A stretch of 64,000 nt of DNA from Winogradskyella sp. PG-2 (lineage in GTDB: Bacteria; Bacteroidota; Bacteroidia; Flavobacteriales; Flavobacteriaceae). The stretch spans positions 2,912,001-2,976,000 of the forward strand of contig NZ_AP014583.1 in NCBI RefSeq assembly GCF_000828715.1, written 5' to 3'. The notes beneath the pieces are model-generated. The model saw only the letters and a program-made list of their open reading frames with translations. It was not told the origin of the DNA and made no database searches. Position numbers and translations under genes: made by a program. Shown piece by piece: positions 8,702 through 25,419 of the stretch; positions within the stretch are counted from its first letter, which is position 1, and every line of letters starts with the position of its first letter.

Positions 8702-10006
8702 TTAATTTAATGCCGATTTATATGTGTTTAAGCAACGTTCCCTAGCTGTTTTATGATCTACAATTGGTTGATGATACGTTAATTTTTCAAAATCAGGAAC
8801 CCATTTTTTTATGTATTCTAACCCTTTATCAAACTTTTGGATTTGCGATGTCGGGTTAAAAATTCTAAAATATGGAGCAGCATCAACACCAGAACCAGCG
8901 ACCCATTGCCAATTACCTATATTACTAGACATTTCATAGTCATGTAATTTCTCAGCAAAGTAGGCTTCTCCCCATCTCCAATCTATTAATAAGTGTTTGC
9001 ACAAAAAGCTACCGACTAACATACGTACTCTATTGTGCATAAAGCCAGTTTCATTTAATTGGCGCATGCCAGCATCTACAAACGGATAACCGGTTTTACC
9101 TTCGCACCAGAGTTTAAATTCTTCTTCGTTATTTCTCCATTCTATTCGATCGTATTTAGACTTAAAGGAATCTTTTGCTGTATATGGGAAATGCCAAAGA
9201 ATTTGCATAAAAAACTCACGCCAAATTAATTCTTGCCAAAAGATTTCGTTTTCTTCAGCAATAGCTTTTTCTACCATTTTGCGCACGCTTACTGTGCCAA
9301 AACGGAGATGAGGGCCTAAACGAGAGGTTGAGTCTTTTGCAGGAAAGTTCCTTGTAGCTTCGTATTCTTGAATTAAAGTTGGTGTTAGTTTATAAGAAAG
9401 GATTTTTTGTGACGATTCTTTGAAACCAATATCTGATAAACTCAAATTTGGTAAATTTATCTTTTTCACAAGATTACCTAGCGCTTTTTCAGATGGATAA
9501 AATTTTAAATCATTGGATTTAAACTTCTCCTTCCATGTGCGCATGTATGGAGTATAAACAACATATGGATTACCATCTTTTTTTACCACGTCATCTTTTT
9601 CGAAAATGACTTGGTCTTTGTAGGTTTTAAAATTAATATTTTGTTCTGCTAAAAAATCTTTAATCTTTGTGTCGCGTTCGTTTGCATAAGGTTCGTAGTC
9701 ATGATTTGTATAAACTTCTGAGATATCATAATCTTTAATTAACTGCTTATATATGTCTTTTGGCTTACCATGAAACATTGCAATACCACTATCATGATTA
9801 TCCTGTAGAATCATCCTCATACTTTGAAGTGTATCATGAATATAATTGACACGCGCATCATTTTCAGGAAGCTTATCTAGAATTTCAGAATCAAAGATAA
9901 ATATTGGTAGTACAGGGTTATCAGATTTCAAAGCATTAAAAAAGCCAACATTATCATCTAATCTTAGATCTCTTCTAAACCAAAAAATATTTAGCGTTTT
10001 ATTCAT
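8702..10006 (-). CDS. phrB: Class I cyclobutane pyrimidine dimer photolyase
   Basis: Repairs UV-induced cyclobutane pyrimidine dimers using blue light and FADH-. The 434 residues comprise the N-terminal Rossmann-like antenna domain (FWFRRDLRLDDN at 8-19) and the C-terminal helical FAD domain. The electron-transfer tryptophans are present at positions matching the E. coli triad: Trp300 (KLWCEGKTGYP), Trp343 (IDWRWGE) and Trp366 (IGNWQWVAG). Asn362, near flavin N5, and the DAAPYFRIFNP block are also intact. It is the most canonical of the four photolyase-family proteins in this window and is the last gene of operon 1, one base after the SRPBCC gene. Confidence 0.95.
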   Translation of the reverse strand: MNKTLNIFWFRRDLRLDDNVGFFNALKSDNPVLPIFIFDSEILDKLPENDARVNYIHDTLQSMRMILQDNHDSGIAMFHGKPKDIYKQLIKDYDISEVYTNHDYEPYANERDTKIKDFLAEQNINFKTYKDQVIFEKDDVVKKDGNPYVVYTPYMRTWKEKFKSNDLKFYPSEKALGNLVKKINLPNLSLSDIGFKESSQKILSYKLTPTLIQEYEATRNFPAKDSTSRLGPHLRFGTVSVRKMVEKAIAEENEIFWQELIWREFFMQILWHFPYTAKDSFKSKYDRIEWRNNEEEFKLWCEGKTGYPFVDAGMRQLNETGFMHNRVRMLVGSFLCKHLLIDWRWGEAYFAEKLHDYEMSSNIGNWQWVAGSGVDAAPYFRIFNPTSQIQKFDKGLEYIKKWVPDFEKLTYHQPIVDHKTARERCLNTYKSALN

Positions 10007-10007
10007 T

Positions 10008-10469
10008 CTAATACTTTCCGAATAATTCTTCGAGTTTTTTAGTTCTATAATTAAAAATCTCTTCTAGTTTTGGTTTTACTAAAAAAGGATGAACCATTTG
10101 CCCAAGAATTCCCATTGGTACTTTATAATCTATTATGTCTTCCATCTCTACACCTCCTTCAATTTCTTTTATAAAATGTTTATGATGCCATAAGGAATAA
10201 GGTCCAAAACGTTGCTCGTCAACAAAGTATTCATAGTCTTTAACATGAGTGATTTCTGTTACCCATTTGGTTTTTATACCTAAAACAGGTGTAACGATGT
10301 ACTGAATAATTTGTCCTGGAAACATTGGTCGATCCGAACCAGAAAGGATATTAAAGCCCATATAATCTGGTGTGATAGTTTTTAAATTCGCAGGACTTGA
10401 TAAAAACTCCCAAGCTGTTTCAACAGAAATTGGTAAATTCTGTTTTTTATGAAGTGTATATATTTTCAT
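10008..10469 (-). CDS. SRPBCC family (START/Bet v1-like) ligand-binding protein
   Basis: A 153-residue cytosolic protein with the SRPBCC helix-grip pattern: an N-terminal strand with the PISVETAWEFLSSPANLKTITP segment, central strands around WVTEITHVKDYEYFVDEQRFGPYSLWHHKH, and a long C-terminal helix ending in the KLEELF motif. Such proteins bind lipids or other hydrophobic ligands; close relatives are commonly encoded beside photolyases in bacteria. It lies two bases after tspO and one base before the photolyase, within operon 1. The ligand is unknown; with TspO next to it, a tetrapyrrole or carotenoid breakdown product is a reasonable but untested idea. Confidence 0.8.
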   Translation of the reverse strand: MKIYTLHKKQNLPISVETAWEFLSSPANLKTITPDYMGFNILSGSDRPMFPGQIIQYIVTPVLGIKTKWVTEITHVKDYEYFVDEQRFGPYSLWHHKHFIKEIEGGVEMEDIIDYKVPMGILGQMVHPFLVKPKLEEIFNYRTKKLEELFGKY

Positions 10470-10471
10470 TT

Positions 10472-10936
10472 CTAATTATTAAAAACGATGTAACCATTTA
10501 AAGATGTCGCTATACAAAGCCATATGATGTAAGGCAATAATAGATATTTCATTTTGCTCAATTTTTCATCACCAAAACTTATAAAAAGGTAAAGAATAGT
10601 TAACGTTAAAGCAATGATAGTTACAAGTGCAATATTTGTTAAGTGTTGATTGAAAAAAATATAATTCCAGCTTACATTAAGCAATACCGCAATACTATAA
10701 ATAGTAATAACAAACTTAGACTTCCTAATAGAAAATAGATAGGTGAGGTAAACAGAAAAGCAGATCATTATTAATGTCCAAGCTGCACCAAAAACCCAAC
10801 CAGGTGGCTCCCATGGTGCTCGATTAAGATTAGTGTACCAACTAGAAATAGGTCCATCATTCATTAAATAACTACCTAGTGCTAGTCCACCAAAATTGAT
10901 AATTAAGAATAATATAAGAAGAAAGATTTTTTTCAA
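10472..10936 (-). CDS. tspO: TspO/MBR family membrane protein
   Basis: Tryptophan-rich outer or inner membrane sensor/transporter related to the mitochondrial translocator protein. The 154 residues form five hydrophobic helices and carry the family signatures RAPWEPPGWVFGAAWT, WNYIFF and LPYIIWLCIATSLNGYIV. TspO proteins bind porphyrins and have light- and stress-dependent roles in bacteria. The frame opens with TTG at 10936 (no ATG is available near the conserved N-terminus), four bases after the stop of the Lacal_2735 gene, which fits translational coupling. Placement in the photolyase operon suggests protection against porphyrin photosensitisation. Confidence 0.93.
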   Translation of the reverse strand: MKKIFLLILFLIINFGGLALGSYLMNDGPISSWYTNLNRAPWEPPGWVFGAAWTLIMICFSVYLTYLFSIRKSKFVITIYSIAVLLNVSWNYIFFNQHLTNIALVTIIALTLTILYLFISFGDEKLSKMKYLLLPYIIWLCIATSLNGYIVFNN

Positions 10937-10940
10937 CTCA

Positions 10941-11108
10941 CTATTGTTTTAAGATTTCAATCTGCTCAATAATTTTTTGAGCTTCGGCATACCTTTTGTC
11001 ACTTTCTGCTCTGTTTGTTGTTGAGAGTTTGTGCCAATCTGCCATTAGCTTTTCGTATTGCTTTTGTAGCTTGTCTAACTCAGAGGTTTTTTTAAATATC
11101 CCGAACAT
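10941..11108 (-). CDS. Lacal_2735 family small protein
   Basis: A 55-residue protein starting MFGIFKKTSELDKLQKQYEK and ending in a helical KIIEQIEILKQ segment. It matches the small flavobacterial family named Lacal_2735 (N-terminal MFG-F-KK, then a charged coiled-coil-like helix). I found it by translating the gap between the glutathione peroxidase and tspO; it is only 56 codons with its stop. It lies four bases downstream of the peroxidase gene and four bases upstream of tspO, so it is a regular member of operon 1. The function is unknown; the length and heptad-like leucines suggest oligomerisation or a binding partner. Confidence 0.8.
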   Translation of the reverse strand: MFGIFKKTSELDKLQKQYEKLMADWHKLSTTNRAESDKRYAEAQKIIEQIEILKQ

Positions 11109-11112
11109 AATG

Positions 11113-11652
11113 TTATTTTAAAAATTTAGTAATCCTAGAATTCATTGGTTTAGTGATAGAGTAGAAGAAATCTAACAACTCACCATTTTCATCTATCATG
11201 TACTTTTGAAAATTCCATTTCACAGTAGAATTTTGCTTTCCATTTATGGCTTTGTTGGTTAGCCAATCGTATAAAGGATGTTTATTATGGCCCTTCACGT
11301 CAATTTTTTCTGTAATAAGGAATGATACTCCATAGTTTATTTCACAAAATTCTTGAATCTCTTCAGAGCTTCCAGGCTCTTGTTTTCCAAATTGATTACA
11401 AGGAACACCTATAAGAACTATGCTATCTTTATAAGTATATTGTAGTTCTTGTAACTCTCTATATTGTGGTGTAAAGCCACATTTAGAAGCTACGTTAACA
11501 AATAGTATCTTCTTTCCTTTATAGTCAGATAAATTAATAGGTTGTCCTTGTAAGTTATTGATATCTATATTGTATATAGATTTTGTTGATTTTTGAAAAA
11601 TATTTCTATCTGTTGCTTGTAAGGTGCTAACGAATGCTTTGAGTGGGTTCAT
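11113..11652 (-). CDS. Glutathione peroxidase family (Cys-type thiol peroxidase)
   Basis: Reduces hydrogen peroxide or lipid peroxides. The 179 residues show the thioredoxin-like GPx fold with NVASKCGFTPQY (peroxidatic Cys58), IGVPCNQFGKQEPG (Gln87 of the catalytic tetrad; Cys85 possible resolving Cys) and KWNFQKY (Trp146, Asn147). Cys replaces the selenocysteine of animal enzymes; bacterial forms usually use thioredoxin, not glutathione. There is no obvious secretion signal. It sits inside operon 1 between an SDR and the Lacal_2735 gene, three to four bases from each, and adds peroxide defence to the light-response set. Confidence 0.93.
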   Translation of the reverse strand: MNPLKAFVSTLQATDRNIFQKSTKSIYNIDINNLQGQPINLSDYKGKKILFVNVASKCGFTPQYRELQELQYTYKDSIVLIGVPCNQFGKQEPGSSEEIQEFCEINYGVSFLITEKIDVKGHNKHPLYDWLTNKAINGKQNSTVKWNFQKYMIDENGELLDFFYSITKPMNSRITKFLK

Positions 11653-11655
11653 TTA

Positions 11656-12342
11656 CTATATTTTAAAACTTACTATTCCACAATCCATTTCAAAAACTTG
11701 TCCTGATAAAGAAGATCCTTTATCTGAAAGAAGAAATCCTGCCATATCTGCAACTTCCTGTGGTTGTAAATATTTTTTTAATGGATGTCGTTCATTCATA
11801 TTCTCAATCATCCTCTCATTACGCAATAATTTTGATGCTAATTCTGTATCTGTAACTGTTGGTGCAATTGCATTTACTCTAATCGTTGGAGCTAATTCTG
11901 CACCCAAAGATTTCGTTAAGCCTTCTACAGCAGATTTTGAAGCTGCTACACTAGCATGGAAAGGCATACCTAACTTAGCTGCCACTGTGCTGAATAATAT
12001 GATAGAAGGTTTATTACCGTTTTTTAAAGCAGGTAAATATTTCTGAATAGCTTTTACAGCACCTAAGACATTAATTTCAAAATCATTTTTAAAATCATCA
12101 ATACTTAATCGATTGATAGGTTTTAAATTGATGCTTCCAGGACAATAGACTAATCCATCAGCACTTTCAATATCTGGTAACTCATCAGAAATCACATCAC
12201 AATCGTAATGTTTTAGATTTGGATGTGAATGTTCTGGCGCAGTTCTACTGATGTTTACAACTTCATCATATGAAGTAAGCAAAGATGAAACAATAGCATT
12301 GCCAATACCTTTGCTTCCTCCAATCACTATTAACCTATTCAT
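11656..12342 (-). CDS. SDR family oxidoreductase lacking the catalytic tyrosine
   Basis: A 228-residue short-chain dehydrogenase with the NAD(P)-binding IGGSKGIGNA motif at 7-16, the active-site Asn (INVLGA, Asn91), Ser118 (FSTVAAK) and Lys136. The tyrosine of the YxxxK motif is replaced: the segment reads HASVAASKSAVEGLT, putting Val132 where Tyr is expected, by the Ser-to-Lys spacing. Relatives beside photolyase genes in Bacteroidota and cyanobacteria often show this HAS/AIAAAK form, so it is probably a natural subfamily, not damage. The reaction is unknown; it may use another proton donor or bind nucleotide only. Operon 1, four bases after the small 75-residue gene. Confidence 0.85.
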   Translation of the reverse strand: MNRLIVIGGSKGIGNAIVSSLLTSYDEVVNISRTAPEHSHPNLKHYDCDVISDELPDIESADGLVYCPGSINLKPINRLSIDDFKNDFEINVLGAVKAIQKYLPALKNGNKPSIILFSTVAAKLGMPFHASVAASKSAVEGLTKSLGAELAPTIRVNAIAPTVTDTELASKLLRNERMIENMNERHPLKKYLQPQEVADMAGFLLSDKGSSLSGQVFEMDCGIVSFKI

Positions 12343-12346
12343 AGTT

Positions 12347-12574
12347 TTATGATGCTGTTAATGGACGTCCTTTTAAACGTTTTTCAATTTTCTGTTTTAT
12401 AACGGTAAGACGTTTCATTAAGTCCATTAATTTAGAATCTTTTTCCTCTTTGTATAATTCGTTTACCTCCAAGATGATATCTTTTGCTTCTCTTGCAGCT
12501 ATAATTCTGTCACTTGTTGTTTTGAATGAAAACTTTCTGTTTTCGAACTCTATAGCTTTTTCTATTGTATCCAT
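12347..12574 (-). CDS. Small uncharacterised helical protein in photolyase operon
   Basis: Not recognised. The 75 residues are highly charged and predicted by eye to be mostly helical (EKAIEFENRKFSF, EAKDIILEVNELYKEEKD, LMDLMKRLTVIKQKIEKRLKGR), with no signal peptide, cysteines or membrane segment. The ATG at 12574 lies three bases after the folE stop and the gene ends four bases before the SDR start, so it is clearly expressed as part of operon 1. A structural or regulatory partner of one of the neighbours is likely, but nothing in the sequence assigns a function. Confidence 0.7.
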   Translation of the reverse strand: MDTIEKAIEFENRKFSFKTTSDRIIAAREAKDIILEVNELYKEEKDSKLMDLMKRLTVIKQKIEKRLKGRPLTAS

Positions 12575-12577
12575 AGC

Positions 12578-13306
12578 TTAATTGTTTATATAATTCTGTA
12601 ATTCTGAAATTTTTGAAGCGGTATTAAACTCACCTCCGTAATATGTTGTTACTGTAGCTGATGTATCATCCTTAACACCTCTTGAAGAGACACATAAATG
12701 CTTTGCATCTATAATTACAGCAACATCTTCGGTTTCTAAAATCGTTTTTAATTCGTTTGCAATTTGATTTGTTAAACGCTCTTGTACCTGAGGACGTTTT
12801 GCATAATATTGAACAATTCTATTTAATTTAGAAAGTCCTATAACTTTGCCTGATGATTTATAGGCTATATGCGCTTTTCCTATGATAGGCACAAAGTGAT
12901 GTTCACAATTAGAGTAGAAGGTAATATTTTTTTCTACTAACATCTGGTTATATTGATATTTATTATCAAATAATGCGATTTTAGGTTTATTCTCTGGGTC
13001 TAATCCAGAAAATATTTCTTCAACATACATCTTTGCTACACGATTTGGTGTCCCTTGCAAAGAATCGTCAGTTAAATCTAATCCAAGCACATCCATTATT
13101 TCTGAAAATAAAATAGAGATGCGTTGTTTCTTTTCGTCATTAGACATTTCAAAAGCGTTTGGCTTCATTGGTGTCTCAAGACTTGTAAATAAGTGGTCGT
13201 CACCAATGTCTTCCGAAGAAAATCCATTAAGTTGGTAACCATTTGTTTTGGAAATTGTTTCTGTATCCATAGAATCTTTTTTATGTGCTGTCTCTAAGTA
13301 CTCCAC
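12578..13306 (-). CDS. folE: GTP cyclohydrolase I with N-terminal extension
   Basis: Converts GTP to 7,8-dihydroneopterin triphosphate, the entry to folate and other pterins. In the longest frame (242 residues) the zinc ligands are Cys134 and His137 (SNCEHHF) and Cys205 (KHLCVSSRG); the VIGLSKLNRIVQYYAKRPQVQERLT block is intact. The first ~50 residues are poorly conserved and hydrophilic. The frame opens with GTG at 13306; an ATG at 13270 (MDTETISK) gives 230 residues and may be the real start. Its place in a photolyase operon suggests it feeds a pterin antenna (methenyltetrahydrofolate) or another pterin cofactor; a genome may carry a second folE for housekeeping. Confidence 0.93.
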   Translation of the reverse strand: MEYLETAHKKDSMDTETISKTNGYQLNGFSSEDIGDDHLFTSLETPMKPNAFEMSNDEKKQRISILFSEIMDVLGLDLTDDSLQGTPNRVAKMYVEEIFSGLDPENKPKIALFDNKYQYNQMLVEKNITFYSNCEHHFVPIIGKAHIAYKSSGKVIGLSKLNRIVQYYAKRPQVQERLTNQIANELKTILETEDVAVIIDAKHLCVSSRGVKDDTSATVTTYYGGEFNTASKISELQNYINN

Positions 13307-13325
13307 ACTTAAATCAAAGCACGAG

Positions 13326-13598
13326 TTAACGTTTTGAAATAGAGTTATTTGTTATTAGACGTTGTCTAGAGCATTTAAATCTGCCTTCGTCAAACGTTCT
13401 TATTTTACTATGTTTTGTAGCTCTGCCTTGTACGCGAGCTCTCCATAATCTAAAGCTCTTTGGTTTTAATTCTCTTCGCATTAGAGTGATGACATCTCGT
13501 TCTTTTAACCCGAATTGGAATGTTATTGCACCAAAAGGTGTCCTATCTTCCCATGCCATTTCTATAATGCGATCGATATCTTTAAGTTTTAAATCCAT
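13326..13598 (-). CDS. TIGR03643/DUF2805 family protein
   Basis: A 90-residue protein of the TIGR03643 (DUF2805) family, recognised by DRIIEMAWEDRTPFGAITFQFGL, ERDVITLMRRELKPKSFRLWRARVQGR and the basic tail. The AFxxIxxQFGLxExxVIxLMR stretch looks like a helix-turn-helix, so nucleic-acid binding is possible. The family is known mainly for being encoded beside cryptochromes and photolyases, in keeping with the context here. It overlaps the end of the preceding gene by 10 bases, which suggests translational coupling. The molecular role is unknown. Confidence 0.88.
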   Translation of the reverse strand: MDLKLKDIDRIIEMAWEDRTPFGAITFQFGLKERDVITLMRRELKPKSFRLWRARVQGRATKHSKIRTFDEGRFKCSRQRLITNNSISKR

Positions 13599-14026
13599 AA
13601 GCTTTGAGGCATTGTATATTCTAAATCATATTTTACTTTTTGATCAAGTAATTTATCAAAGAAATTTTTGTTTTCTCTGAATGTTTTACTGTTTCTAAAG
13701 TGAATAAATCGTCCTTGAGCATGTATGCTAGAGCCATTTGTTTTATATATAACTAATTGATAATAGGGAATAATCCATGTAAAATTTTTTAAACCTTGGT
13801 TAATCATTACTAAAATACCTTTTGGTCTTAATTCAATATTTGCATAGTTAATATCTGACACAGTGTTCATTATCGACCTCATATTCGGACTCACATCATC
13901 AATAATCATCCGTTTAGAGCCTATTCCTCTTAATTTCAATTTCTGTACCAAACTAAAAGAACTGCCAATTAAGTCAGATATAATTTGTTTGTGTTCAGAA
14001 TTGTGATGTGTAGTATTAAGTATCAT
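13589..14026 (-). CDS. Uncharacterised protein, first gene of photolyase operon 1
   Basis: Not recognised. A 145-residue soluble protein with alternating strands and helices (IELRPKGILVMINQG, FTWIIPYYQLVIYKTN, SSIHAQGRFIHFRNS) and no signal peptide, cysteine or membrane span. It is the first gene after the GTTTAAC palindrome and a perfect -7 element, which ends only seven bases before the ATG at 14026, so the mRNA may be nearly leaderless or the real start may lie further in. The next gene, TIGR03643/DUF2805, overlaps its end by 10 bases. Being promoter-proximal, it is probably the most strongly transcribed gene of the operon. Confidence 0.72.
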   Translation of the reverse strand: MILNTTHHNSEHKQIISDLIGSSFSLVQKLKLRGIGSKRMIIDDVSPNMRSIMNTVSDINYANIELRPKGILVMINQGLKNFTWIIPYYQLVIYKTNGSSIHAQGRFIHFRNSKTFRENKNFFDKLLDQKVKYDLEYTMPQSLWI

Positions 14027-14033
14027 AACTACC

Positions 14034-14041
14034 CAAAGTTA
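14034..14041 (-). promoter_or_regulatory. -7 element of photolyase operon 1
   Basis: Read on the minus strand it is TAACTTTG, a perfect TAnnTTTG. It lies six bases downstream of the palindrome at 14048-14075. The usual TTTG at the -33 position is missing: the bases 19 nt upstream are CGTG, inside the palindrome spacer. This points to control by an activator, a repressor blocking the site, or another sigma factor. Confidence 0.65.
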
Positions 14042-14047
14042 CAAAAT

Positions 14048-14075
14048 GTTTAACTTTTTACACGTATAGTTAAAC
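14048..14075 (-). promoter_or_regulatory. 28-bp palindromic operator, copy A
   Basis: GTTTAAC-N14-GTTAAAC, a perfect 7-bp inverted repeat with 21 bp between half-site centres, two helical turns, as expected for a dimeric regulator. Flanks AAAAT on one side and AAAA(A)TTAACA on the other are shared with copy B at 23562-23589, while the 14-bp spacers are unrelated, so conservation is restricted to bases a protein would contact. It stands directly in front of operon 1. Confidence 0.75.
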
Positions 14076-14126
14076 AAAAATTAACAGAGAATTATGAAAG
14101 TAGGGAAATTAGTCATAGATATAACG

Positions 14127-15617
14127 TTATTCATCTCTCAGCATACGATTTCGTTGACTTATAGTATGTCGTTTTAAGATACGAGAACTTTCACGTCGCA
14201 CTTCTGGATCGTCTTTCATATTCCAAAGAATATCACTAGCACGTTTACGATTTTCTTTAATATTTACTATGGGTTGCGGATAATCTTCTCCGAGTTTGAA
14301 ATTATAAAAAGCCTCTTCCATCTCAGTCATAAGGTAAGGTTCGTGCACAAAAGGTGTCTCAAGGGGAGCGAGTTCAGGAACCCATTTTCTAATGAATATA
14401 GCATCAGGGTCGTGTTTTAAACTATTAGTGGTAGGATTATAAATTCTTAAGTTGTTAATACCAGTTTCTCCTGCTTGCATTTGTAGTTGTGGAAAGTGAA
14501 TACCAGGTTCAAAATCTAAAAACTGTTGGGAAAGATGCCTCGTTGCGGACTGCCAAGGTTGCCACAGAATATGGGTAAAGAAGGATGCCAACATGGCACG
14601 CATTCTAAAATTCACATAGCCAGTTTCTATTAAACAACGCATACTAGCATCGACTAAAGGAAAGCCTGTTTTACCTTCAAACCATGCTTGCTGATATGTA
14701 TCGGAAATACTTTTCTTTAGTTTATGATACCCTTTATTAACACTTGCCTCTTCCATGGTATGTTCCATCTCAAACTTTTGAATGAAATGCGCCTGCCAAC
14801 GTAATCGCGATAGAAAAGCACTAATGTGACGCTTATATTTAGATGCGGATTTTACCTTTTTACCAGCTTTGAAAACTTGTCTTATAGAGAGGTTTCCCCA
14901 TGCGATGTAAGGTGAGATACGACTGCAACTGCTTCGAGAAGCTTCTGGTTTTGATATATTAAACATATAATCCTCGTGTCGACTATCAAAAAAGGAATTT
15001 GCATATTTCCAACCTACTGTACTGCCGCCTTTTTGAAATTTAGATTCAGAAGGAGTATCTAAATGCGTTACTGTAAACACTTTTTCCAGATTATCAATAG
15101 CCGTAATACTTAACAATTGATTGTCTTTAGGTTGAAACACTTCGAGATCTTGAGCCATATAAGATTCCCAATTTTCAAACCAATTATCTCTGTTAACTAA
15201 GCCACGTTCAACACCATTATTTTTATTTTCTTGCCATTGAATAAAATTATTTCTACAATAGCGTTTAAACTCTTTGTCTCTATTGTATGTAATCAATAAT
15301 CCTGTTTCTACATGAGAATAAACGGTATCTATCCTGTAAAACTCTTGTAATATATTAAAAGCACTCTGTATATCGCAATCTATTGCTAAAACCTTTGTAT
15401 TATAAGATTCTAATTGTTTGTTTAAATCCGAAATAGATTCTTTAATGAAATTAAAATGTCTTTTACTGTAATGCTCGTCATTTAATAAGATAAATTCAAA
15501 GACATAAATTATTAATGTTGGTTTTCCCGATTTTAAAGCATTCGAAATCGCTTCATTATCTAGAAGGCGTAAATCTCGCTTTAACCATACAATATTAATG
15601 TGCTCTCTCTTAGTCAT
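14127..15617 (-). CDS. Atypical cryptochrome/photolyase family protein
   Basis: A 496-residue member of the photolyase/cryptochrome superfamily, with the N-terminal antenna domain (IVWLKRDLRLLDN at 9-21) and the FAD domain (SRISPYIAWGNLS, EGKTGFPLVDASMRCL, NLRIYNPTTNSLKHD). The flavin pocket is unusual: where class I enzymes have NIGNWQW, it reads HFPQLQM (374-380), so by my alignment the Asn near flavin N5 becomes His374 and the proximal tryptophan becomes Leu378. It may be a photoreceptor or a repair enzyme with a different electron path. It is the last gene of operon 2 and overlaps the preceding gene by eight bases. The subfamily could not be assigned with certainty. Confidence 0.9.
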   Translation of the reverse strand: MTKREHINIVWLKRDLRLLDNEAISNALKSGKPTLIIYVFEFILLNDEHYSKRHFNFIKESISDLNKQLESYNTKVLAIDCDIQSAFNILQEFYRIDTVYSHVETGLLITYNRDKEFKRYCRNNFIQWQENKNNGVERGLVNRDNWFENWESYMAQDLEVFQPKDNQLLSITAIDNLEKVFTVTHLDTPSESKFQKGGSTVGWKYANSFFDSRHEDYMFNISKPEASRSSCSRISPYIAWGNLSIRQVFKAGKKVKSASKYKRHISAFLSRLRWQAHFIQKFEMEHTMEEASVNKGYHKLKKSISDTYQQAWFEGKTGFPLVDASMRCLIETGYVNFRMRAMLASFFTHILWQPWQSATRHLSQQFLDFEPGIHFPQLQMQAGETGINNLRIYNPTTNSLKHDPDAIFIRKWVPELAPLETPFVHEPYLMTEMEEAFYNFKLGEDYPQPIVNIKENRKRASDILWNMKDDPEVRRESSRILKRHTISQRNRMLRDE

Positions 15618-17091
15618 TATCTAATATCTTAAAATATGCTTCTGCATTAGCAAAATGCTTCTCCTGTTTTTCTTTATTCATTTTATCAAATGTTCTTATA
15701 AGCATTCCTAATCGAGGATTACTTAAAAAGAAATCGCGATGCTTATCCATAAATGTCCAGAATAACCCATCCCAAGTTGGTTGCCAATCTCCCTTAGAAT
15801 AATTACTCATTTTCATAATGTAATTACTACTGCTGATATACGGTTTTGTTGACATTAAACCACCATCTGCATATAAACTCATGCCATAGACATTAGGTAC
15901 CATAACCCAATCGTAAGCATCTATAAATAATTCCATAAACCATTTATATACATCGTCCGGATCAAACTCGCATAACACCATAAAGTTTCCTAAAATCATT
16001 AACCGTTCAATGTGGTGTGCGTAACCAGTTTTTAAAACTTTTTTAATGACATCGTCAATAGGCTTTACACCTGTAGAACCATCATAAAATGATTTCGGAA
16101 TCTTTCTACTAAATTTCCAAAAGTTTCTGTTGCGTTCTTCTGTACCCTTCACTTCGTAAACACCTCTGATAAATTCTCTCCAACCCAAAATTTGGCGCAC
16201 AAATCCTTCAGTAGAATTTAATGGAATATCATTTGTTTTGGCATAAGCAATAGCAGTGTCGATTACATATTTTGGTTCTAACAGACCGACATTGATCAAA
16301 GGTGATAATAGACTATGGTTTAAAAAGTGTTCTTCCTTTACGATAGCATCTTCATAGACTCCAAACTCATGAAACCTGATTTCTAAAAATTGTTGAAACC
16401 AATTTTCAGCAGTTTTATAATCTATGGGATAGATTGAAAAACCTGTGAGTTGACCATTATGTTCACCAAAGTTAGAATTGACATAGTTTTCCGCCTCCTG
16501 GTGAAATTTAGTCTTATCAGGAAACTGAATTCTTGGAGGCATTTTATCTTTTGGATATTTCTTTCGGTTATCTGAGTCATATGTTAGTTTACCACCTTCT
16601 GGCTCACCGTTAACCATTAAAATATCTCGCTCTTTTCGTTGCTGTTTGTAAAAAGACGTTTGAAAGAATTTCTTTTTCGTTGGTTTAAAAAATGAGATTA
16701 ATTCTTCTTTAGAATTTATAAAAAGTGGATTTTTATACCATTCTATTTCGATATCCTTTGTTACCAAATTGATATGTTTTTGTAGCCAATTGTCAGTAGG
16801 ATCAATGATATGAAGTTTTTGAATACCATCTTCAATTAGCTTTGGAATCAAATGTCTAACATCGGACTTTTTTGATGTGGCTTCAATGTAATTCACTTTT
16901 TTCCCTGTGCCTTCTAAATAATTTCCATATGCTTTCATGGATCCTCTATGAAACGCAATTTTTTGCTTATGAAACTTATAATGTTTAAAGAATAAAAATT
17001 CTTCAACTAAATAAATAGTATCAATTTGGTTTAAAACTTCAGTTGTTTTAAATAATTGATTTGGAAATATTAGTGTACTTTCTTTTAACAT
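15610..17091 (-). CDS. CryPro/FeS-BCP-type photolyase homologue without Fe-S ligands
   Basis: A 493-residue protein of the bacterial (6-4) photolyase group (FeS-BCP/CryPro), with the N-terminal ILIFPNQLF-like start, EGFVRQILGWREFIRG, GYAHHIERLMILGNF (356-370) and VPNVYGMSLYADGGLMSTKPY (398-418). Members of this group normally hold a [4Fe-4S] cluster with four cysteines: one in an MNC segment before GYAHH, two in a DYCxxC segment, and one before the PF-LYW motif. Here these places read VKPID (342-346), SNYSKGD (429-435) and WQPTWDGLFW (436-445). The only cysteine of the whole protein is Cys374, elsewhere. The cluster must be absent. Likely still FAD-binding; repair activity is open. Operon 2, between a membrane protein and the atypical photolyase. 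Confidence 0.9.
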   Translation of the reverse strand: MLKESTLIFPNQLFKTTEVLNQIDTIYLVEEFLFFKHYKFHKQKIAFHRGSMKAYGNYLEGTGKKVNYIEATSKKSDVRHLIPKLIEDGIQKLHIIDPTDNWLQKHINLVTKDIEIEWYKNPLFINSKEELISFFKPTKKKFFQTSFYKQQRKERDILMVNGEPEGGKLTYDSDNRKKYPKDKMPPRIQFPDKTKFHQEAENYVNSNFGEHNGQLTGFSIYPIDYKTAENWFQQFLEIRFHEFGVYEDAIVKEEHFLNHSLLSPLINVGLLEPKYVIDTAIAYAKTNDIPLNSTEGFVRQILGWREFIRGVYEVKGTEERNRNFWKFSRKIPKSFYDGSTGVKPIDDVIKKVLKTGYAHHIERLMILGNFMVLCEFDPDDVYKWFMELFIDAYDWVMVPNVYGMSLYADGGLMSTKPYISSSNYIMKMSNYSKGDWQPTWDGLFWTFMDKHRDFFLSNPRLGMLIRTFDKMNKEKQEKHFANAEAYFKILDND

Positions 17092-17111
17092 GTTTATTCC
17101 TTTGTACTTAT

Positions 17112-17999
17112 TTATGTATGATCGGTCAAAGTGCTTTTTTCAAACTTATTATGAATTAGTATAATAGCTAATCCGAATAAAACTGCTGATATTATTAATA
17201 CGGTACTGACCAATCCATTTACTCCAAATGACATTCTGATTAAGATGGTTGATACTACAAAACCCGAGTTTCTAATTATTTTGTGAAACTTATCGGTGTA
17301 AAAGAAGGAAATCAAAAGTAAAACAACATCAACTAAAATTAGTACTGTAAAGAATTCGTCGAAAAATAGATTATTGATGGTTTCAAAATCAGGTATTGTA
17401 TTCGAAGCTAAGGAAATATTTGACATCCAGCTAAATAATGTTATTAAAGCCATTATTAGAAATATTGGAACTAGAGCAACGGCTATTATTTTTTTTCTAT
17501 TAATGAATCGTTCAATTTTAGTTTCTTTATTTTTTGGTTTCTTCACTTTTATCATCCCTTGTTTTTGAAATTGAAAAATCAAGTAAAATAAAATTATTGA
17601 TGCAAGAATATCATATGTGAATTGTAAATCTCCTTTTACTTCAAACCAATTTGACGTGAGTTCAAGACCAGATAAATCTTTGAATAATTTTCTAATAATT
17701 ATAAGTGTTATAATTTCATACTGTTTAGTTATGTAGGTTGTAAACGATTTTGGTAAATAATAGATTAACAAATAAACCTCATAAATAAGGATAAATGAAA
17801 ATGGTGTATAAATTGATGATATCGAGTTATTAAATAGCTCTGATTCTAAATGAATATTTATAATATTAATCTTAGATAAATAGATTAGAGTCAAATGAAC
17901 GAATAACCCAATTAGAGCTATATATAAGATTATTTTCTCAATCTTCTTTTTGCTAATTTCAGAGAAAAAAATAGCATAGATTTTATTTAAAATTATCAT
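17112..17999 (-). CDS. Uncharacterised multi-pass membrane protein in photolyase operon
   Basis: Not recognised. The 295 residues contain about seven to eight hydrophobic segments (for example IILYIALIGLFVHLTLIYL, IYTPFSFILIYEVYLLIYYL, ILASIILFYLIFQF, IIAVALVPIFLIMALITLF, FTVLILVDVVLLLISFF, and a long C-terminal pair), with a basic loop IKVKKPKNKETKIERFINRKK in the middle. No signal motif, heme or metal ligand pattern stands out. It sits between CRY-DASH (61-base gap) and the CryPro homologue (20-base gap) in operon 2. It could anchor or signal for one of the flavoproteins, but this is only suggested by position. Confidence 0.75.
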   Translation of the reverse strand: MIILNKIYAIFFSEISKKKIEKIILYIALIGLFVHLTLIYLSKINIINIHLESELFNNSISSIYTPFSFILIYEVYLLIYYLPKSFTTYITKQYEIITLIIIRKLFKDLSGLELTSNWFEVKGDLQFTYDILASIILFYLIFQFQKQGMIKVKKPKNKETKIERFINRKKIIAVALVPIFLIMALITLFSWMSNISLASNTIPDFETINNLFFDEFFTVLILVDVVLLLISFFYTDKFHKIIRNSGFVVSTILIRMSFGVNGLVSTVLIISAVLFGLAIILIHNKFEKSTLTDHT

Positions 18000-18060
18000 T
18001 ATTTATATGTTCTTAAAATTTAAATTATTCTTAATGCTGCTATAAAATATTATCATGCAT

Positions 18061-19368
18061 TTAAAACAAACTTTGTTGTAACCAAAGGTTCCTGAACTTA
18101 CCAGTAGTATCGTAACGTTCTGCTTGCAATTGCACATTAAACTTTCTATCTCTAGGATCGTTGCCAACTCCAGCGACATACATCCAATTACCATAGTTAC
18201 TATGGACATCATAATCGATTAGCATAGACTCAAAATAGGCTGCGCCAATTCGCCAATCTAGTTGTAGTTCTTTTGCGAAATAGGAAGCTACATTTTGTCT
18301 TCCTCTATTGCTCATCCAACCTGTTTGTTTTAATTCTATCATGTTAGCATTAACAAAGTCAGATTCTGTCTCTCCTTTAATCCATTTGTCGATTTGAGTT
18401 TTAGCGGTACTCCAATTATAGTCTTTACCTAATATACCTTCAAGTTTAAATATTTGGCTGCCATATTTCATAGAGACATACTTAAAGTAGTCTCTCCATA
18501 TTAATTCGAATATAAGCCAGTAGGTCGATTGGTTTTTATAATGCTCCGTTTCAAATTGTTTTACTTTCCAATAAATGGTTCTTGCAGATATAGATCCATT
18601 TGCTAACCAAGATGAAAACTTAGAACTATAGTCTTTACCTACTAATCCATTTCTGGTTTTTTTATAAAAGCCTAGTTTTTTAGTTTCAAAAAAGTAATCG
18701 TTTAATCTATTTAAAGCTTCAGTTTCTCCACCTTTAAATGGGAATGCAGATTGCGGATGTGTTTTAAAATCTTCAAATCCTAAATCTTGAAGTGTTGGTA
18801 TTACAGTTTTATTTTCAATTCGATTTTCTTTCGAACGTTTTTCAAAACTTACGGCTTCTCTTATAAAAACATACTTTTCTAACTTTTTCCTGAAGACTGT
18901 GAATACTTGTGGTAATTTTTCAATTTCAAAACTTATATCTTCAGGATGAAATAAGAATTGATTGTATTCTTTGTGAAAAGTTATGTTTTCTAGCTTAGAT
19001 TTTACAGCGTTTTCTGTAGCCATTTCATCCTTTGTCCAATCGTTCTGAATATAGATATCAGCAACATTATAATCTGTACAAACTTTTGGAATGACCCTTT
19101 CTGGTAGGTCATAATAGATTAATAAATCAATATTTAATTCAGCTAATTGCTGTTTTAAATCATTTATAGTTTCAATAAGAAAATTTGCTCTATACTTTTC
19201 TGTTATTTTAAAGCCACGTTTATTAATGGTAAAATATTTTGGGTCGAAACAATAAATACCTATAACACTATTTTTAGCTTTACAAGCTGATGCTAAAACA
19301 GCATTATCGATGGTTCGTAAATCGTTTCTAAACCAAACTAAATTTGTGTGTTCTTGTTTTTTCTGCAT
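18061..19368 (-). CDS. Cryptochrome DASH
   Basis: Blue-light flavoprotein of the CRY-DASH family, which repairs pyrimidine dimers in single-stranded or looped DNA and may also signal. The 435 residues have the antenna domain ([13 protein letters not shown] at 10-22) and a complete FAD domain with the DASH signatures [23 protein letters not shown] and [16 protein letters not shown] (Asn391 and Trp395 match the flavin N5 Asn and proximal Trp), followed by [10 protein letters not shown]. The start at 19368 lies 31 bases inside the DUF2256 gene in another frame. The pair DUF2256 plus CRY-DASH is common in bacteria and marine groups. Operon 2. Confidence 0.95.
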
Positions 19369-19487
19369 TTATCACTACAATATTTTACGTTGTCCCAATC
19401 TTTCTGCCATTTTTTTCTCCATGTAAATGGTCTATCACAAACGAGACATATTTTTTGAGGTAGATGTTGTTTTTTAGCACCTCTCAT
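19338..19487 (-). CDS. DUF2256 domain-containing zinc-ribbon-like small protein
   Basis: A 49-residue protein of family DUF2256, found by translating the gap between the SDR and CRY-DASH. It has the whole signature: [15 protein letters not shown], then [13 protein letters not shown], with four cysteines in two CxxC-like pairs that probably bind zinc. Its start overlaps the upstream SDR stop by four bases (ATGA), and its last 31 bases overlap the cryptochrome start in another frame, so the three genes are translationally coupled. DUF2256 is known for genetic association with cryptochromes/photolyases; the molecular role is unknown. Confidence 0.88.
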
Positions 19488-20911
19488 GTATTTTTTTCTA
19501 CTAAAGCGTTTATCATACCATTAAAAACAAAAGCATGAAATGGTAAAACGGAATACCAATACAAGCGTCCCCAAACCCCTTTTGGCCTAAAAACGGCGCG
19601 TTGGTATAGTTTGTCTTTAACTATTTTAAACTCTAACCAAGCTTCGCCAGGAAGTTTCATTTCTGCAAACAGTAATAATCTTTTTTCTTTTTTGTCAGCT
19701 AATAGTACACGCCAAAAATCTAAAGGATCTCCAGCTTCTAAATAGGTGTCATGAGTTCTTCCTCTCCTCAAGCCTACGCCTCCAAATAATTTATCCATAT
19801 ATCCACGAAGTTTCCATAGTCTGTTAAAACTATACCAGCCATTACGTCCGCCAATACTCCAAATTTTATCTATGGTAAAATTTTCATCTTGAATAATGCG
19901 ATGTCTTACATCTTTAAAACAACCATATTGTGGTAGCTCTATATGCTTAGATAATTGGTCCTTAAAAACACCACTACTTACGGCATCTTTCCAACTAGAA
20001 ATCACAGCATTCTGCTGAATTTTTTGAAATGCTAAATTCACTGCAGTTTTGTAAGTCATTGGTTCAATATCAATATGCGTATTGATATCACTGGGTTTGC
20101 CTATAACTTCAACTTTCATGCTGTCTACTAGAGCCTGTGCTAATTGAAAGGATGTAGATGTTACAAAGTATAACCAGAAGGATGAAAGTTTTGGTGATAA
20201 AACAGGAAGTGTATAAATGTAGCGTTTCAAACCACGAACTTCACCAAATTGCAAGAGCATCTCTTTATAAGTTAATATCTCTGGTCCAAAAATATCGTAA
20301 GCATTATTGTATAATTCTGTTTTTTCAAGTGCACCAGATAAATAGGTGAGAACGTCTCTAATACCAAGCGGTTGTGTTTTAGTATTCAACCATTTAGGTG
20401 TTACCATTATTGGTAGCTTTTCTACAATATCTCTAATTATTTCAAAAGAAGCACTACCACTTCCTACAATGATGCCTGCTCTAAATGTTGTAAGCGCATA
20501 GGCATCAGATTTTAATGTATGCTCTACTTGAAGTCTTGATTTTAAGTGTTTCGATAGAGAGTCATCGTTTACAATTCCACTTAAATAAATAACTTGTTTA
20601 CATTCTGTTTTTGATACTAAAGTTTTAAAATTTGCAGAACATTCTTTTTCTAAAGTTTCAAAATCATTATCAGATGTTGTTGACATCGAATGAATTAGGT
20701 AATACGCAGCATTAATATTTTTAGGAATTTGAGCAGTTTCTGGCTCTAAGAAATCTACTTTGATAAAAGTACAATTGGGATGTTCTTCGATTTCATCCGG
20801 AATACGGTTCATATCTCGAACGCAACAAACCAATTCGTGGTCATCTTCTATCAATTGAAGCGCTAGTCGTTTAGCAATATAGCCAGTTGTGCCTGTTATA
20901 AGAATTCGCAT
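19484..20911 (-). CDS. SDR family protein with C-terminal DUF2867 domain
   Basis: A 475-residue two-domain protein. Residues 1 to about 300 form an atypical (extended) SDR Rossmann domain beginning [18 protein letters not shown], with an NmrA-like layout ([25 protein letters not shown]). The last ~150 residues match DUF2867 ([65 protein letters not shown]). Such fusions are often encoded near photolyases and carotenoid genes; the substrate is unknown. It begins at the stop of the flavin reductase gene (one shared base) and ends overlapping DUF2256 by four bases. Operon 2. Confidence 0.88.
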
Positions 20912-21549
20912 TAGTCATTGGTTTTTGCAAATTCTGGTTTAGGTCTTTGATAGGCTTGACGCATTTTTAAATTAGGAATAGAATAACCATCTAAACCATT
21001 GATGGTTGCTACTTTTCCTTTTGATAAATCGATAAAACCATCTTTATCTAAGAGTGCATCGGGAACATATAATTTCTCAATCTTGCCAATAACCAAGATC
21101 GTATTATTTGCTTTGATCGGATATTCTTCAACAAAACGCATCGCCATTTGTATAGGAGAACCTTTTACAAATGGAGCATGAAAATCAGATTTGTAATCTT
21201 CTTCTAAATTTGTGACATCGAACTCAGAAATAGTTTCATCGTATTTAGCAGATGTATGATGTGCATCTTCTAAAATATCCTCGTAAATATGGTTGATCGT
21301 ATATACACCAGTTGTTTTAAGATTGTAATATGTATTTCGCATTACTGTCGTAGGGCGCAGAAAGAAACCTAGTAATGCTGGATTAGAACCTAAGTGTGTT
21401 ACAGAGCTAAATACTGCAACATTTGTTACATTATCTTCGCTTTTGGTACCAATAAGATTTGCAGATTTGTAACCAGAACAACTATTCATAAGATTAATTC
21501 TGTATAAATGATGCATTTGGTCAATATCATCTCGACTAAATTCTACCAT
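20911..21549 (-). CDS. Flavin reductase family (FMN-binding split-barrel) protein
   Basis: A 212-residue flavin-reductase-like protein with the FMN-binding split-barrel pattern: NSCSGYKSANLIGT, NVAVFSSVTHLGSNPALLGFFLRP and TTGVYTINHI. These proteins bind FMN and reduce flavin with NAD(P)H, or act as FMN-dependent oxidoreductases. In this operon, with three FAD-dependent photolyase homologues downstream, supplying reduced flavin is a tempting role but is inferred only from context. Its start directly abuts the ABC1 kinase stop and its stop shares one base with the SDR start, so translation is coupled on both sides. Confidence 0.88.
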   Translation of the reverse strand: MVEFSRDDIDQMHHLYRINLMNSCSGYKSANLIGTKSEDNVTNVAVFSSVTHLGSNPALLGFFLRPTTVMRNTYYNLKTTGVYTINHIYEDILEDAHHTSAKYDETISEFDVTNLEEDYKSDFHAPFVKGSPIQMAMRFVEEYPIKANNTILVIGKIEKLYVPDALLDKDGFIDLSKGKVATINGLDGYSIPNLKMRQAYQRPKPEFAKTND

Positions 21550-22860
21550 TTATAAATTGATGTAATTATTGATTTTTATGTGCTGTGCTTTTAAATCGAA
21601 CATCAAATTATAAAGTCCAAAGAAGGTTCTGTTGATGTAAATGAAATGTGTTGATCCGCGATTACCATTCATGTTACGCAGTTCAGTACTTTTTGAATAT
21701 TTTTGTCCCATTTCAGTAATCTGATTAAAAAATTCTGGATTTGAAAAATCAAATTCTTCAGAGTGAAAAGGCTTCGTGAAAATACGAAGTAATTCATGAA
21801 ACATAGCACTAAAGAATTCAATTTCTTCTGTAGAATCATCTTTTCTCAATATTTCTAGCTCAAACATTTTTTCAGCAAAAGCATCAGGATTATTTATGCA
21901 ATCTTTATCAGCTAATTCAAAATATGGTGTATAGAAGTCTTCAGGAATAGTCTTCATACAACCAAAATCTAATGCAATTAAGTCATCTTCTTTTGAAACT
22001 AAAAAGTTTCCAGGATGCGGATCTGCATGTACTTTCTTTAATTTATGGATTTGAAACATATAAAAATTCCATAAGGCTTGTCCTAATTGATTCGATTTTT
22101 CTCGATCGTCATTATGAGCTACAAATTCAGAAAGATGTTCGCCTTTCATGTAATCCATAGCTATTATACGCTCAGAAGAATATTCCTCGTAATAATTTGG
22201 GAACTTTAAATTAGGGATATGTTTACAAGCCTCAACTACTGCTTTACTTTGTTCTATTTCTAAGATATAATTAGTCTCTTCGGTAAGCTTATTTTCAACT
22301 TCTTTAAAATACTTATCGGAATCTTTCCCTTTAATGTTAAACATCTTTATGGCGATTGGTTTTACCAATGCTAAGTCTGATGCAATACTTTCCGCAACTC
22401 CAGGATATTGGATTTTCACAGCAAATTTTTTCCCATCCTTCTCTGCAATATGGACTTGTCCTATACTAGCAGCATTAACTGAAGTTGCGTTGAAAGTATC
22501 AAAAAGGTCTTCGGGATGTTGCCCGAAATATTTTTTAAATGTTTTTATGACTAATGGCGGCGAAAGTGGTGGAACAGAAAATTGAGACAAAGAAAATTTT
22601 TCCACATAAGCTTGTGGTAAAATACTTTTCTCCATACTCAGCATCTGTGCTACCTTAAGCGCACTGCCTTTTAATTTTTTGAGGCTATCATAAATATCCT
22701 CTGCATTATTTTGATTGAGACGTTCCTTGGCATCTTCTTTAGAATTTACCATCTTATCTCCATAATATTTTATATAATTAACACCAACCTTAGCTCCTGT
22801 AGATACTAATTTAGAGGCTCGAGAAATTTTAGAAATGGGTATACTGTCTATGGTCTTCAT
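21550..22860 (-). CDS. ABC1/UbiB (AarF) family atypical kinase
   Basis: A 436-residue ABC1/ADCK/UbiB protein-kinase-like protein. Family motifs are all visible: the KxGQ-like segment LKGSALKVAQMLSMEKS, AASIGQVH (the Ala-rich nucleotide loop), VKIQYPGV, HADPHPGNFLV (catalytic loop) and ALDFGCMK (metal-binding DFG). Such proteins bind ATP and act on isoprenoid lipid or quinone metabolism; plastid members respond to light stress. The ATG shares one base with the stop of the TetR-like gene (TAATG), showing tight coupling. The role here is uncertain, but quinone or carotenoid handling under light stress fits the operon. Confidence 0.92.
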   Translation of the reverse strand: MKTIDSIPISKISRASKLVSTGAKVGVNYIKYYGDKMVNSKEDAKERLNQNNAEDIYDSLKKLKGSALKVAQMLSMEKSILPQAYVEKFSLSQFSVPPLSPPLVIKTFKKYFGQHPEDLFDTFNATSVNAASIGQVHIAEKDGKKFAVKIQYPGVAESIASDLALVKPIAIKMFNIKGKDSDKYFKEVENKLTEETNYILEIEQSKAVVEACKHIPNLKFPNYYEEYSSERIIAMDYMKGEHLSEFVAHNDDREKSNQLGQALWNFYMFQIHKLKKVHADPHPGNFLVSKEDDLIALDFGCMKTIPEDFYTPYFELADKDCINNPDAFAEKMFELEILRKDDSTEEIEFFSAMFHELLRIFTKPFHSEEFDFSNPEFFNQITEMGQKYSKSTELRNMNGNRGSTHFIYINRTFFGLYNLMFDLKAQHIKINNYINL

Positions 22861-23522
22861 TAATAATTCATTTGCATTTTTTCCTTGTATAAAAACTTTC
22901 CAAGGTCAATAATACTTTTAAGTGGTGTTGTATCAATTAAATCGAAACTTGCTCTGACCGATTTCTCTATAAATAAATCAGTTTTTTCAAAAGAAGGCGA
23001 GGTATCATCCATCCAGAACTTCATCGTAATTAATAACTGAAGCCAGGCAGACTCTTTTAAACTTCTTTTTTGTATCCTAGAAATCTGCTCTTGCTTAAGA
23101 TCAATAGTCTTTATATTTAGGTGCTCTATGTAATTGGTATAACGTTGTTTAAGATGCACTAGAGTTTTCAAGGATTTCATCGATGATTTACTATGGTTTC
23201 CTAATGCGTAATTGACATAGCTTCTATTAGCTGTTAGAATTTCAAAAAATGTATAATAAAAACTAAGCAGTTTATTTTTGGAGTCAAATGTTAAATAGTC
23301 TTTACTCTTTTCGAGAACAGCGTGAGCATTGTCAAAAAATATCTTAAAAATGGATTGTTCTAGAACATCAAAAGATGTAAAGAATTCATAGAATTTTTGT
23401 TCTTCGATATTGTTGTCTTTTGCAAACGCATATACCGTTTTAGGGTATTCATTATGAATTAATACATAATCCATGTAAAACCCTATGATGTCTTCCTGTG
23501 ATAATGATTTCTTTTTAGCCAT
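22860..23522 (-). CDS. TetR-like transcriptional regulator
   Basis: A 220-residue helical protein. The first ~50 residues follow the TetR helix-turn-helix layout (EDIIGFYMDYVLIHNEYPKTVYAFAKDNNIEEQKFYEFFTSFDVLEQ by position: helix 1, then the recognition-helix KFYEFF, in place of the usual YxHF). The rest is an all-helical ligand/dimer domain. I placed the start at the ATG at 23522 (MAKKKSLSQED); an in-frame upstream ATG would put the promoter inside the coding region. It is the first gene of operon 2, with the 28-bp palindrome 40 bases upstream, so it is the best candidate to bind that palindrome and regulate itself and both photolyase operons. Confidence 0.82.
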   Translation of the reverse strand: MAKKKSLSQEDIIGFYMDYVLIHNEYPKTVYAFAKDNNIEEQKFYEFFTSFDVLEQSIFKIFFDNAHAVLEKSKDYLTFDSKNKLLSFYYTFFEILTANRSYVNYALGNHSKSSMKSLKTLVHLKQRYTNYIEHLNIKTIDLKQEQISRIQKRSLKESAWLQLLITMKFWMDDTSPSFEKTDLFIEKSVRASFDLIDTTPLKSIIDLGKFLYKEKMQMNY

Positions 23523-23547
23523 TGTATCGTAATTTTTAATTACAATG

Positions 23548-23555
23548 TAAAGATA
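23548..23555 (-). promoter_or_regulatory. -7 element of photolyase operon 2
   Basis: Minus-strand TATCTTTA, one mismatch from TAnnTTTG, six bases downstream of operator copy B and 25 bases before the ATG at 23522. As at copy A, no TTTG stands at the normal -33 distance. The identical spacing of operator and -7 element at both promoters supports a shared mode of control. Confidence 0.6.
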
Positions 23556-23561
23556 TAAAAT

Positions 23562-23589
23562 GTTTAACGATATGATTATAACGTTAAAC
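23562..23589 (-). promoter_or_regulatory. 28-bp palindromic operator, copy B
   Basis: GTTTAAC-N14-GTTAAAC, the same inverted repeat, spacing and flanks as copy A at 14048-14075 (AAAAT before, AAAAT-TTAACA after). The spacer sequence is different. It precedes the TetR-like gene of operon 2. I found no third complete copy in the window, only single half-sites. Confidence 0.75.
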
Positions 23590-23639
23590 AAAATTTAACA
23601 AGAATATATGAATGCGGAATTAAGTATTGAGAATTTTAA

Positions 23640-24308: not shown

Positions 24309-24309
24309 G

Positions 24310-24918: not shown

Positions 24919-24937
24919 AGTTGGTCTTTATTAATGG

Positions 24938-25408: not shown

Positions 25409-25419
25409 AGTTTTTAATT

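Follow-up and report, generated by a model that had tools for sequence, protein, structure and literature searches.

A conserved inverted-repeat operator ahead of photorepair genes in Winogradskyella sp. PG-2 is probably the target of a LitR/CarH-like regulator

The subject of this analysis is a stretch of 64,000 nucleotides from the genome of Winogradskyella sp. PG-2 (contig NZ_AP014583.1, positions 2,912,001 to 2,976,000), referred to as the window, in which two promoters share the palindrome TGTTTAAC-N14-GTTAAACA. Operator 1 (23561..23590) is located ahead of an operon that begins with the genes for a TetR-like protein and an ABC1-type protein, and operator 2 (14047..14076), 9.5 kb away, precedes an operon that begins with unk145; the palindromes have no strand of their own and are read here on the minus strand. 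In both cases a -7-like element follows on the minus strand, TATCTTTA (23548..23555) 6 bp past operator 1 and TAACTTTG (14034..14041) 6 bp past operator 2, and the -33 positions of the two promoters show CGTG and TAAT instead of TTTG. The core GTTTAAC-N14-GTTAAAC is exact at 23562-23589 and 14048-14075; the spacers of the two sites are unrelated, and the centres of the half-sites are 21 bp apart. A preliminary description of the sequence had already pointed out the twin palindromes, their 6-bp gap to the -7 element, the missing TTTG, the differing spacers and the 21-bp distance, and each of these features was found as described.

Behind operators 1 and 2 lie nine and ten closely packed open reading frames (ORFs), respectively, all on the minus strand, and the second set directly follows the first. 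The first set encodes a TetR-fold protein (22860..23522; Pfam TetR_C_23), which is perhaps COQ9-like and probably not the operator binder, an ABC1-type kinase-like protein (21550..22860; Pfam ABC1, E 2e-52), a flavin reductase-like protein (20911..21549), a NAD(P)-binding/DUF2867 protein (19484..20911), a small DUF2256 protein of 49 residues (19338..19487; E 3e-23), a DASH-family cryptochrome/photolyase (18061..19368; TIGR02765 above cut-off), a 295-residue protein of unknown function (17112..17999), for which a weak DUF1673 match below cut-off is the only hit, a photolyase-related protein of the DPRP type (15610..17091; PF04244, E 2e-50), and a cryptochrome/photolyase-family protein (14127..15617). 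The second set starts with unk145 (13589..14026), the gene for a 145-residue protein for which no family was found and which stays behind the operator in relatives, and continues with a DUF2805/TIGR03643 protein (13326..13598), the GTP cyclohydrolase I gene folE (12578..13306), a small ORF of 75 codons without a family (12347..12574), a short-chain dehydrogenase (11656..12342), a glutathione peroxidase (11113..11652), a small ORF of 55 codons with a weak DUF6435 match below cut-off (10941..11108), a TspO/MBR family protein (10472..10936), an ORF without family match (10008..10469), the product of which we take to be SRPBCC-like, and a DNA photolyase (8702..10006; PF03441, E 1e-73). If three small ORFs are counted the total is 19, in agreement with the 18-19 genes proposed earlier; the extent and the ends of both operons are, however, deduced from ORF spacing. 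Four photolyase/cryptochrome-family genes of different types are found within one 11-kb stretch (8702-19368), and the gene content supports a role in photoprotection and photorepair. A further minus-strand cluster (23640-25746), which reads towards operator 1, comprises ArsR, DUF6428, a weakly phosphatase-like protein and an aquaporin-type gene, and looks like an arsenic-type operon.

In the 3.81-Mb window genome (G000) the two operators are the sole exact copies of the motif, and the reversed pattern, which served as the control in genome scans, has none. When the pattern is relaxed to TGTTTAA-N16-TTAAACA, three sites are found (control 0), namely the two window promoters and a site at G000:208874, about 47 bp ahead of a gene for a fasciclin-domain protein. 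The operator is also kept in front of orthologous genes. Of 80 named loci in relatives, 79 had a readable TetR-gene promoter and 68 a readable unk145-gene promoter, and the operator is present within 2 mismatches in 77/79 and 66/68 of them, respectively, whereas none of 1580 shuffled TetR upstream regions reaches this level. Another 60 TetR promoters were compared, 58 of them from genomes lacking an exact site; 40 of the 60 have the operator within 2 mismatches, eight have it at 3 and twelve lie beyond. A matrix built from 145 sites again gives TGTTTAAC-N14-GTTAAACA, with a spacer that is T-rich and then A-rich and shows no conserved third repeat; in the half-site TAAACA every position is conserved to 98-100%. 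The halves covary weakly at position 7 (14 paired, 6 unpaired double and 53 one-sided changes), and since one-sided changes dominate, we made no use of this signal. In one Winogradskyella species both halves of the operator at the TetR promoter (L276) are altered, to GTTCAA and TTGAAC, so that this single operator shows a paired change. A tally of operator spacings, which peaks at 16 and 18, includes overlapping windows from one and the same palindrome and was therefore not taken as a count. The strength of the motif is its exact core together with its conservation.

In a sample of 199 Flavobacteriaceae genomes from 198 genera, the exact 28-bp motif occurs in 76 genomes, compared with 23 for the reversed control. 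Four other genera (G044, G107, G140, G175) likewise have twin operators, about 8.5 kb apart. Among the 30 loci listed with an exact motif, the adjacent gene is crtI beside a LitR gene in twelve cases, a TetR-like gene in seven, unk145 in six, a fasciclin gene in two and folE in one, and two remain unassigned. It had been proposed that the palindromes define a two-operon regulon; the notion of one regulon sharing a conserved operator stands, but its membership is wider than two operons, as it includes the fasciclin gene here and crtI in relatives.

The regulator that best explains this distribution is encoded outside the window. We think it very likely that a LitR/CarH-like MerR protein has the palindrome as its operator, and the genes behind it probably form a joint light regulon. 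The gene for this protein (G000:C1:27862-28758), of which one copy was found in the window genome, lies directly ahead of crtI and a phytoene synthase gene; crtI was checked to be a phytoene desaturase gene in the window genome and at one of the twelve LitR-crtI motif loci. In the family sample, LitR is encoded in 75 of the 76 motif-positive genomes compared with 87/123 others, and the only motif-positive genome in which LitR was not found (G079) is 81% complete; its TetR promoter keeps the site at 2 mismatches. The association is far clearer in a second sample of 149 genomes, four of them Flavobacteriaceae, drawn from the class in the GTDB sense, which we take to be Bacteroidia. LitR (called at E 1e-20 or better) is present in 87 of these genomes, a TetR-like gene in 35 and the operator in 73. 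The operator occurs in 67/87 genomes with LitR and in 6/62 without it (Fisher p 5e-17); in numbers of sites, 119 are found in the former and 6 in the latter, with 10 and 4 control sites, so that the count in genomes without LitR is about the reversed-control rate. Genome comparison thus strongly supports binding of LitR to the operator, and the suggestion that a LitR-type regulator encoded elsewhere might be responsible, offered earlier as an alternative, has become the best candidate. In a number of loci (L067-L096, near locus position 1479) a single half-site GTTTAAC stands about 22 bp ahead of the LitR ATG, which makes autoregulation possible.

A second line of evidence comes from the recognition helix of LitR. 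For this comparison we assembled 114 LitR loci as a chosen set: the best 30 matches of the family sample, 16 genomes of that sample in which LitR diverges or the TetR promoter is odd, and 28 best plus 40 further class matches out of roughly 90 found. In some genomes of the family there is a second LitR type, in which the residue flanked by the invariant Arg and Trp is Lys and not Ile (TLRKWE vs TIRIWE); its gene lies beside a fasciclin gene in 8/9 cases. Near most of the Lys-type genes the palindrome is GTCTAA-N16/17-TTAGAC, exact or with 1 mismatch (C-form, as opposed to the T-form with GTTTAA). The exact T-form is adjacent to 54/99 loci with Ile-type LitR, six proteins outside the residue pattern having been assigned Ile through alignment, and the C-form to none of the 99; at the Lys-type loci, the C-form is adjacent in 5/9, one of these being GTCCAA/TTGGAC, and the T-form in 0/9. 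Where the residue is Val, Met or Ala, the T-form is found at 1/6 loci. The TetR promoters of genomes with the Lys type are C-form in G038 and G040 (GTCTAA/TTAGAC), mixed in G066, and without a site in G014 and G168. According to the tree, the LitR of G025 has Ile within an otherwise Lys clade, and its own TetR gene carries the exact T-form. In L193, L195 and L197-L202 the Lys-type LitR gene lies beside a fasciclin gene, and between zero and two C-type palindromes, at up to 1 mismatch, are found nearby; in L197, L199 and L201 the C-type is reached only at 1 mismatch, L200 has none near LitR, and some of these also score 1 mismatch to the T-type. Recognition residue and operator base change together, which suggests that the Ile/Lys exchange is a specificity switch.

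The window-genome LitR combines a MerR winged-helix domain (MerR_1, PF13411, E 1.7e-15) with a B12-binding_2 domain. Its matches in solved structures include CarH (5c8d, E 8e-14) and 3whp (E about 1e-13), the latter of which we take to be Thermus LitR. The alignment to CarH extends to residue 256, beyond the four-helix bundle. The Wx9EH motif, which caps the adenosyl group, reads WQTDTISPAHEH in this protein and is present in 114/114 LitR proteins. ExHx2G reads EIHELG, and across the 114 proteins the Glu is kept in 113, the ligand His in 114 and the Gly in 94. The remaining elements of the B12 motif are less well preserved, as the window-genome protein departs from SxV/T and GG (SYF and GH); of the 114 proteins, six have Val at the third position of SxV/T and 110 retain the first G of GG, whereas the second is mostly replaced. 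For this reason we file the protein only as LitR/CarH-like and not as CarH proper, and since SxV/T and the second G are mostly lost in the whole set, coenzyme B12 as the chromophore is the least certain element of our reading.

It is therefore conceivable, although we regard it as the less probable case, that LitR occupies the operator without being a light sensor based on coenzyme B12, and that a partner photoreceptor (a LOV or BLUF protein, or a cryptochrome from the operon) or some other signal takes over this part, as for the class II LitR of Pseudomonas. In addition to the losses just described, the residue beside the Trp is Gln in 73/114 proteins where Thermus CarH has His, and Pfam detects B12-binding_2 as the only B12 domain. 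Class II LitR proteins, which possess only the four-helix bundle, work with a LOV partner (PMC9758184). Against a partner stand the invariant Wx9EH motif and ligand His, the alignment with CarH past the four-helix bundle, and a cobalamin adenosyltransferase encoded in the window genome.

The TetR-like protein, which had been named as the natural candidate for binding the palindrome and would then repress both operons, is very unlikely to do so. It is the product of the first gene behind operator 1, has the TetR_C_23 domain and co-occurs with the motif in Flavobacteriaceae (64/76 motif-positive genomes vs 67/123 others). Yet the gene is missing from twelve of the 76 motif-positive genomes, ten of which are at least 99% complete (in one of the twelve, G098, the site lies within a coding frame), and from 53/73 motif-positive class genomes. 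In the class sample the operator is found in 19/24 genomes with both genes, in 48/63 with LitR alone, in 1/11 with the TetR-like gene alone and in 5/51 with neither, which means that the exact site is missing in 10/11 genomes that have the TetR-like gene without LitR. The effect of LitR within genomes with the TetR-like gene is significant (p 1.5e-4), whereas that of the TetR-like gene within genomes with LitR is not (p 1.0). Moreover, the LitR-less genomes G059 and G158 have no site at their own TetR promoters. As the motif follows LitR and occurs without the TetR-like gene, the TetR-like protein was rejected as the operator binder.

What this protein does instead may be indicated by its profile. 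All 30 members scanned match TetR_C_23, but a TetR N-terminal helix-turn-helix is not among the 17 Pfam families matched by any of the 30 at E 1. Twenty of them show weak similarity to the COQ9 profile PF08511 (best E 0.017), and the window protein scores 12.3 bits, below the cut-off of 20.5; a PDB profile search with the alignment gave nothing significant. Its identity is 83% to the protein of 'Flavobacteriales bacterium ALC-1' and 84% to that of W. luteola. From the weak profile matches and the ABC1-type kinase neighbour, the pair is a possible candidate for a lipid or quinone module of the COQ9/COQ8-like kind.

Equally improbable is a reading in which the palindrome serves an alternative sigma factor or an activator as a promoter element in place of TTTG at -33. 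The preliminary description had also named such a sigma factor, and the absence of TTTG in both window promoters fits. The operator occurs in two registers relative to the -7 element. At most TetR and unk145 promoters, TAnnTT is found 6 bp past the operator (70/77 and 52/66, with a gap of 5 in the other 7/77 TetR promoters). Where the operator is located between LitR and crtI in relatives, it overlies the -7 element: TAnnTTTG starts at operator position 15 in 21/21 distinct sites from 29 chosen crtI loci, and the ATG follows 1-3 nt past the operator. A fixed promoter element could not be shifted by 20 bp in this way, and the presence of the operator follows LitR; this reading was rejected. One LitR-type operator of G079 (L025, 1486-1528) lies just ahead of the start of a Porph_ging (GLPGLI-type) gene and has TATGTTTG at position 15, as at crtI; this gene is possibly a further target, or the site may be a chance occurrence.

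Because 20 bp correspond to about two helical turns, the shift would keep the protein on the same face of the DNA, which fits steric repression by LitR. At either operator position a bound repressor would be well placed to block RNA polymerase. In the proposed mechanism two LitR subunits, which might also be the outermost two in a larger oligomer, would each contact one of the outward-facing half-sites GTTAAACA, which are separated by 21 bp or about two turns. At the window promoters bound LitR would cover the -33 region, and at crtI in relatives the -7 element and the start. By analogy with CarH/LitR, from which light control of the regulon is also drawn, LitR would be bound in the dark and released in the light, so that it probably keeps the regulon genes off in the dark. 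Release by light would then jointly induce the photolyases and cryptochromes, folE, the antioxidant and TspO genes, the TetR-fold/ABC1 pair and the fasciclin protein.

Several observations weigh against the motif or its assignment to LitR and have to be set beside this evidence. A scan of the window at 3 mismatches is not enriched (4 matches vs 7.5 expected), and a genome scan at 2 mismatches yields 36 sites vs 68 in the control; as the latter is swamped by the control, the information must be held in TGTTTAA and TTAAACA. No N14 site within 2 mismatches was found in the LitR-crtI region of the window genome itself. Among LitR-positive class genomes 20/87 lack any exact site, 45/99 Ile-type loci have no adjacent one, and within the Flavobacteriaceae with a TetR-like gene, or within those with LitR, neither gene significantly predicts the motif. 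TetR promoters more than 3 mismatches away include those of the LitR-positive genomes G153, G127, G080, G086, G124 and G160, and the operator is absent at 2/30 TetR loci examined (G014, G084). Further exact sites are located away from regulon genes (L057, L063 and L064, the last within a coding frame). The link between residue and operator is based on few independent events because the Lys proteins sit in one clade. On the protein side, the Pfam scan did not detect the second B12 domain, nor are SxV/T and the second G of GG preserved. That the twin sites are a mere coincidence in AT-rich DNA, as the unenriched scans at 2 and 3 mismatches might suggest, is practically refuted by the two exact sites vs none in the control and by the 77/79 real against 0/1580 shuffled upstream regions.

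The proposed system resembles the adenosylcobalamin-dependent photoreceptor-repressors CarH/LitR of Thermus, Bacillus and Myxococcales in its MerR winged helix and four-helix bundle with Wx9EH, in the position of the operator over the -35 or -10 region and in the carotenoid genes adjacent in relatives; part of the B12 motif of CarH proper is, however, lost here. Published CarH repeats have the form nnnnTnnACAn and are arranged in tandem over -35 or -10 (PMC8156234, PMC9304148), with TnnACA as the consensus of the half-site core (PMC9304148). The half-site T-AA-ACA described here fits this core. Yet CarH operators consist of tandem 11-bp direct repeats, whereas here two inverted half-sites stand 21 bp apart. 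The class II LitR regulon of P. putida (PplR/PmlR type) includes photolyase, cryptochrome and folE, and in P. mendocina a LOV gene is adjacent to the class II LitR system (PMC9758184). The operator of these Pseudomonas regulons also has two spaced half-sites, TGTACA-N12-TGTACA, each with TnnACA, but the core is TGTACA and the distance from centre to centre is 18 bp, compared with TAAACA and 21 bp. Within the Bacteroidetes, the iron-related MliR of the marine Bizionia argentinensis is a MerR-like regulator too. We rejected it as the same regulator, as it has 109 residues and no effector domain (PMC9478572), unlike LitR here; one match in our set (L203, in G180) resembles this short type. In Chryseobacterium lacus, another member of the Bacteroidetes, the crt genes are light-induced, and neither a car nor a lit operon is reported by the authors of that study (PMC7064467). 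Among the titles and abstracts listed from the open literature on LitR, CarH or light in flavobacteria, Bacteroidetes and Dokdonia, we found no description of the operator, and none of the papers listed for the motif itself concerns light control in bacteria; subscription papers were outside this search, and a description may be in print there.

The best reading of these data is that a LitR-like operator regulon is widespread in the class and includes carotenoid genes in relatives. We consider it reasonably probable that it represents a class-wide sunlight regulon of the Bacteroidota, in which LitR-like repressors act on a hitherto undescribed inverted-repeat operator, distinct from the direct repeats of CarH, follow a one-residue code (Ile for TAAACA, Lys for TAGACA) and jointly control carotenoids, photolyases and cryptochromes, folate, a COQ9/COQ8-like lipid module and fasciclin. 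The operator offers a DNA tag by which genes probably under light control can be recognised in a large bacterial group common in sunlit water. Such a tag allows the regulon to be listed genome by genome, together with its enigmatic members, such as the 145-residue protein, DUF2805, fasciclin and the TetR-fold/ABC1 pair. It also opens two questions to experiment: in what way a CarH-like protein may act on inverted sites rather than direct repeats, and whether light sensing survives in a B12 fold that is partly degenerate.

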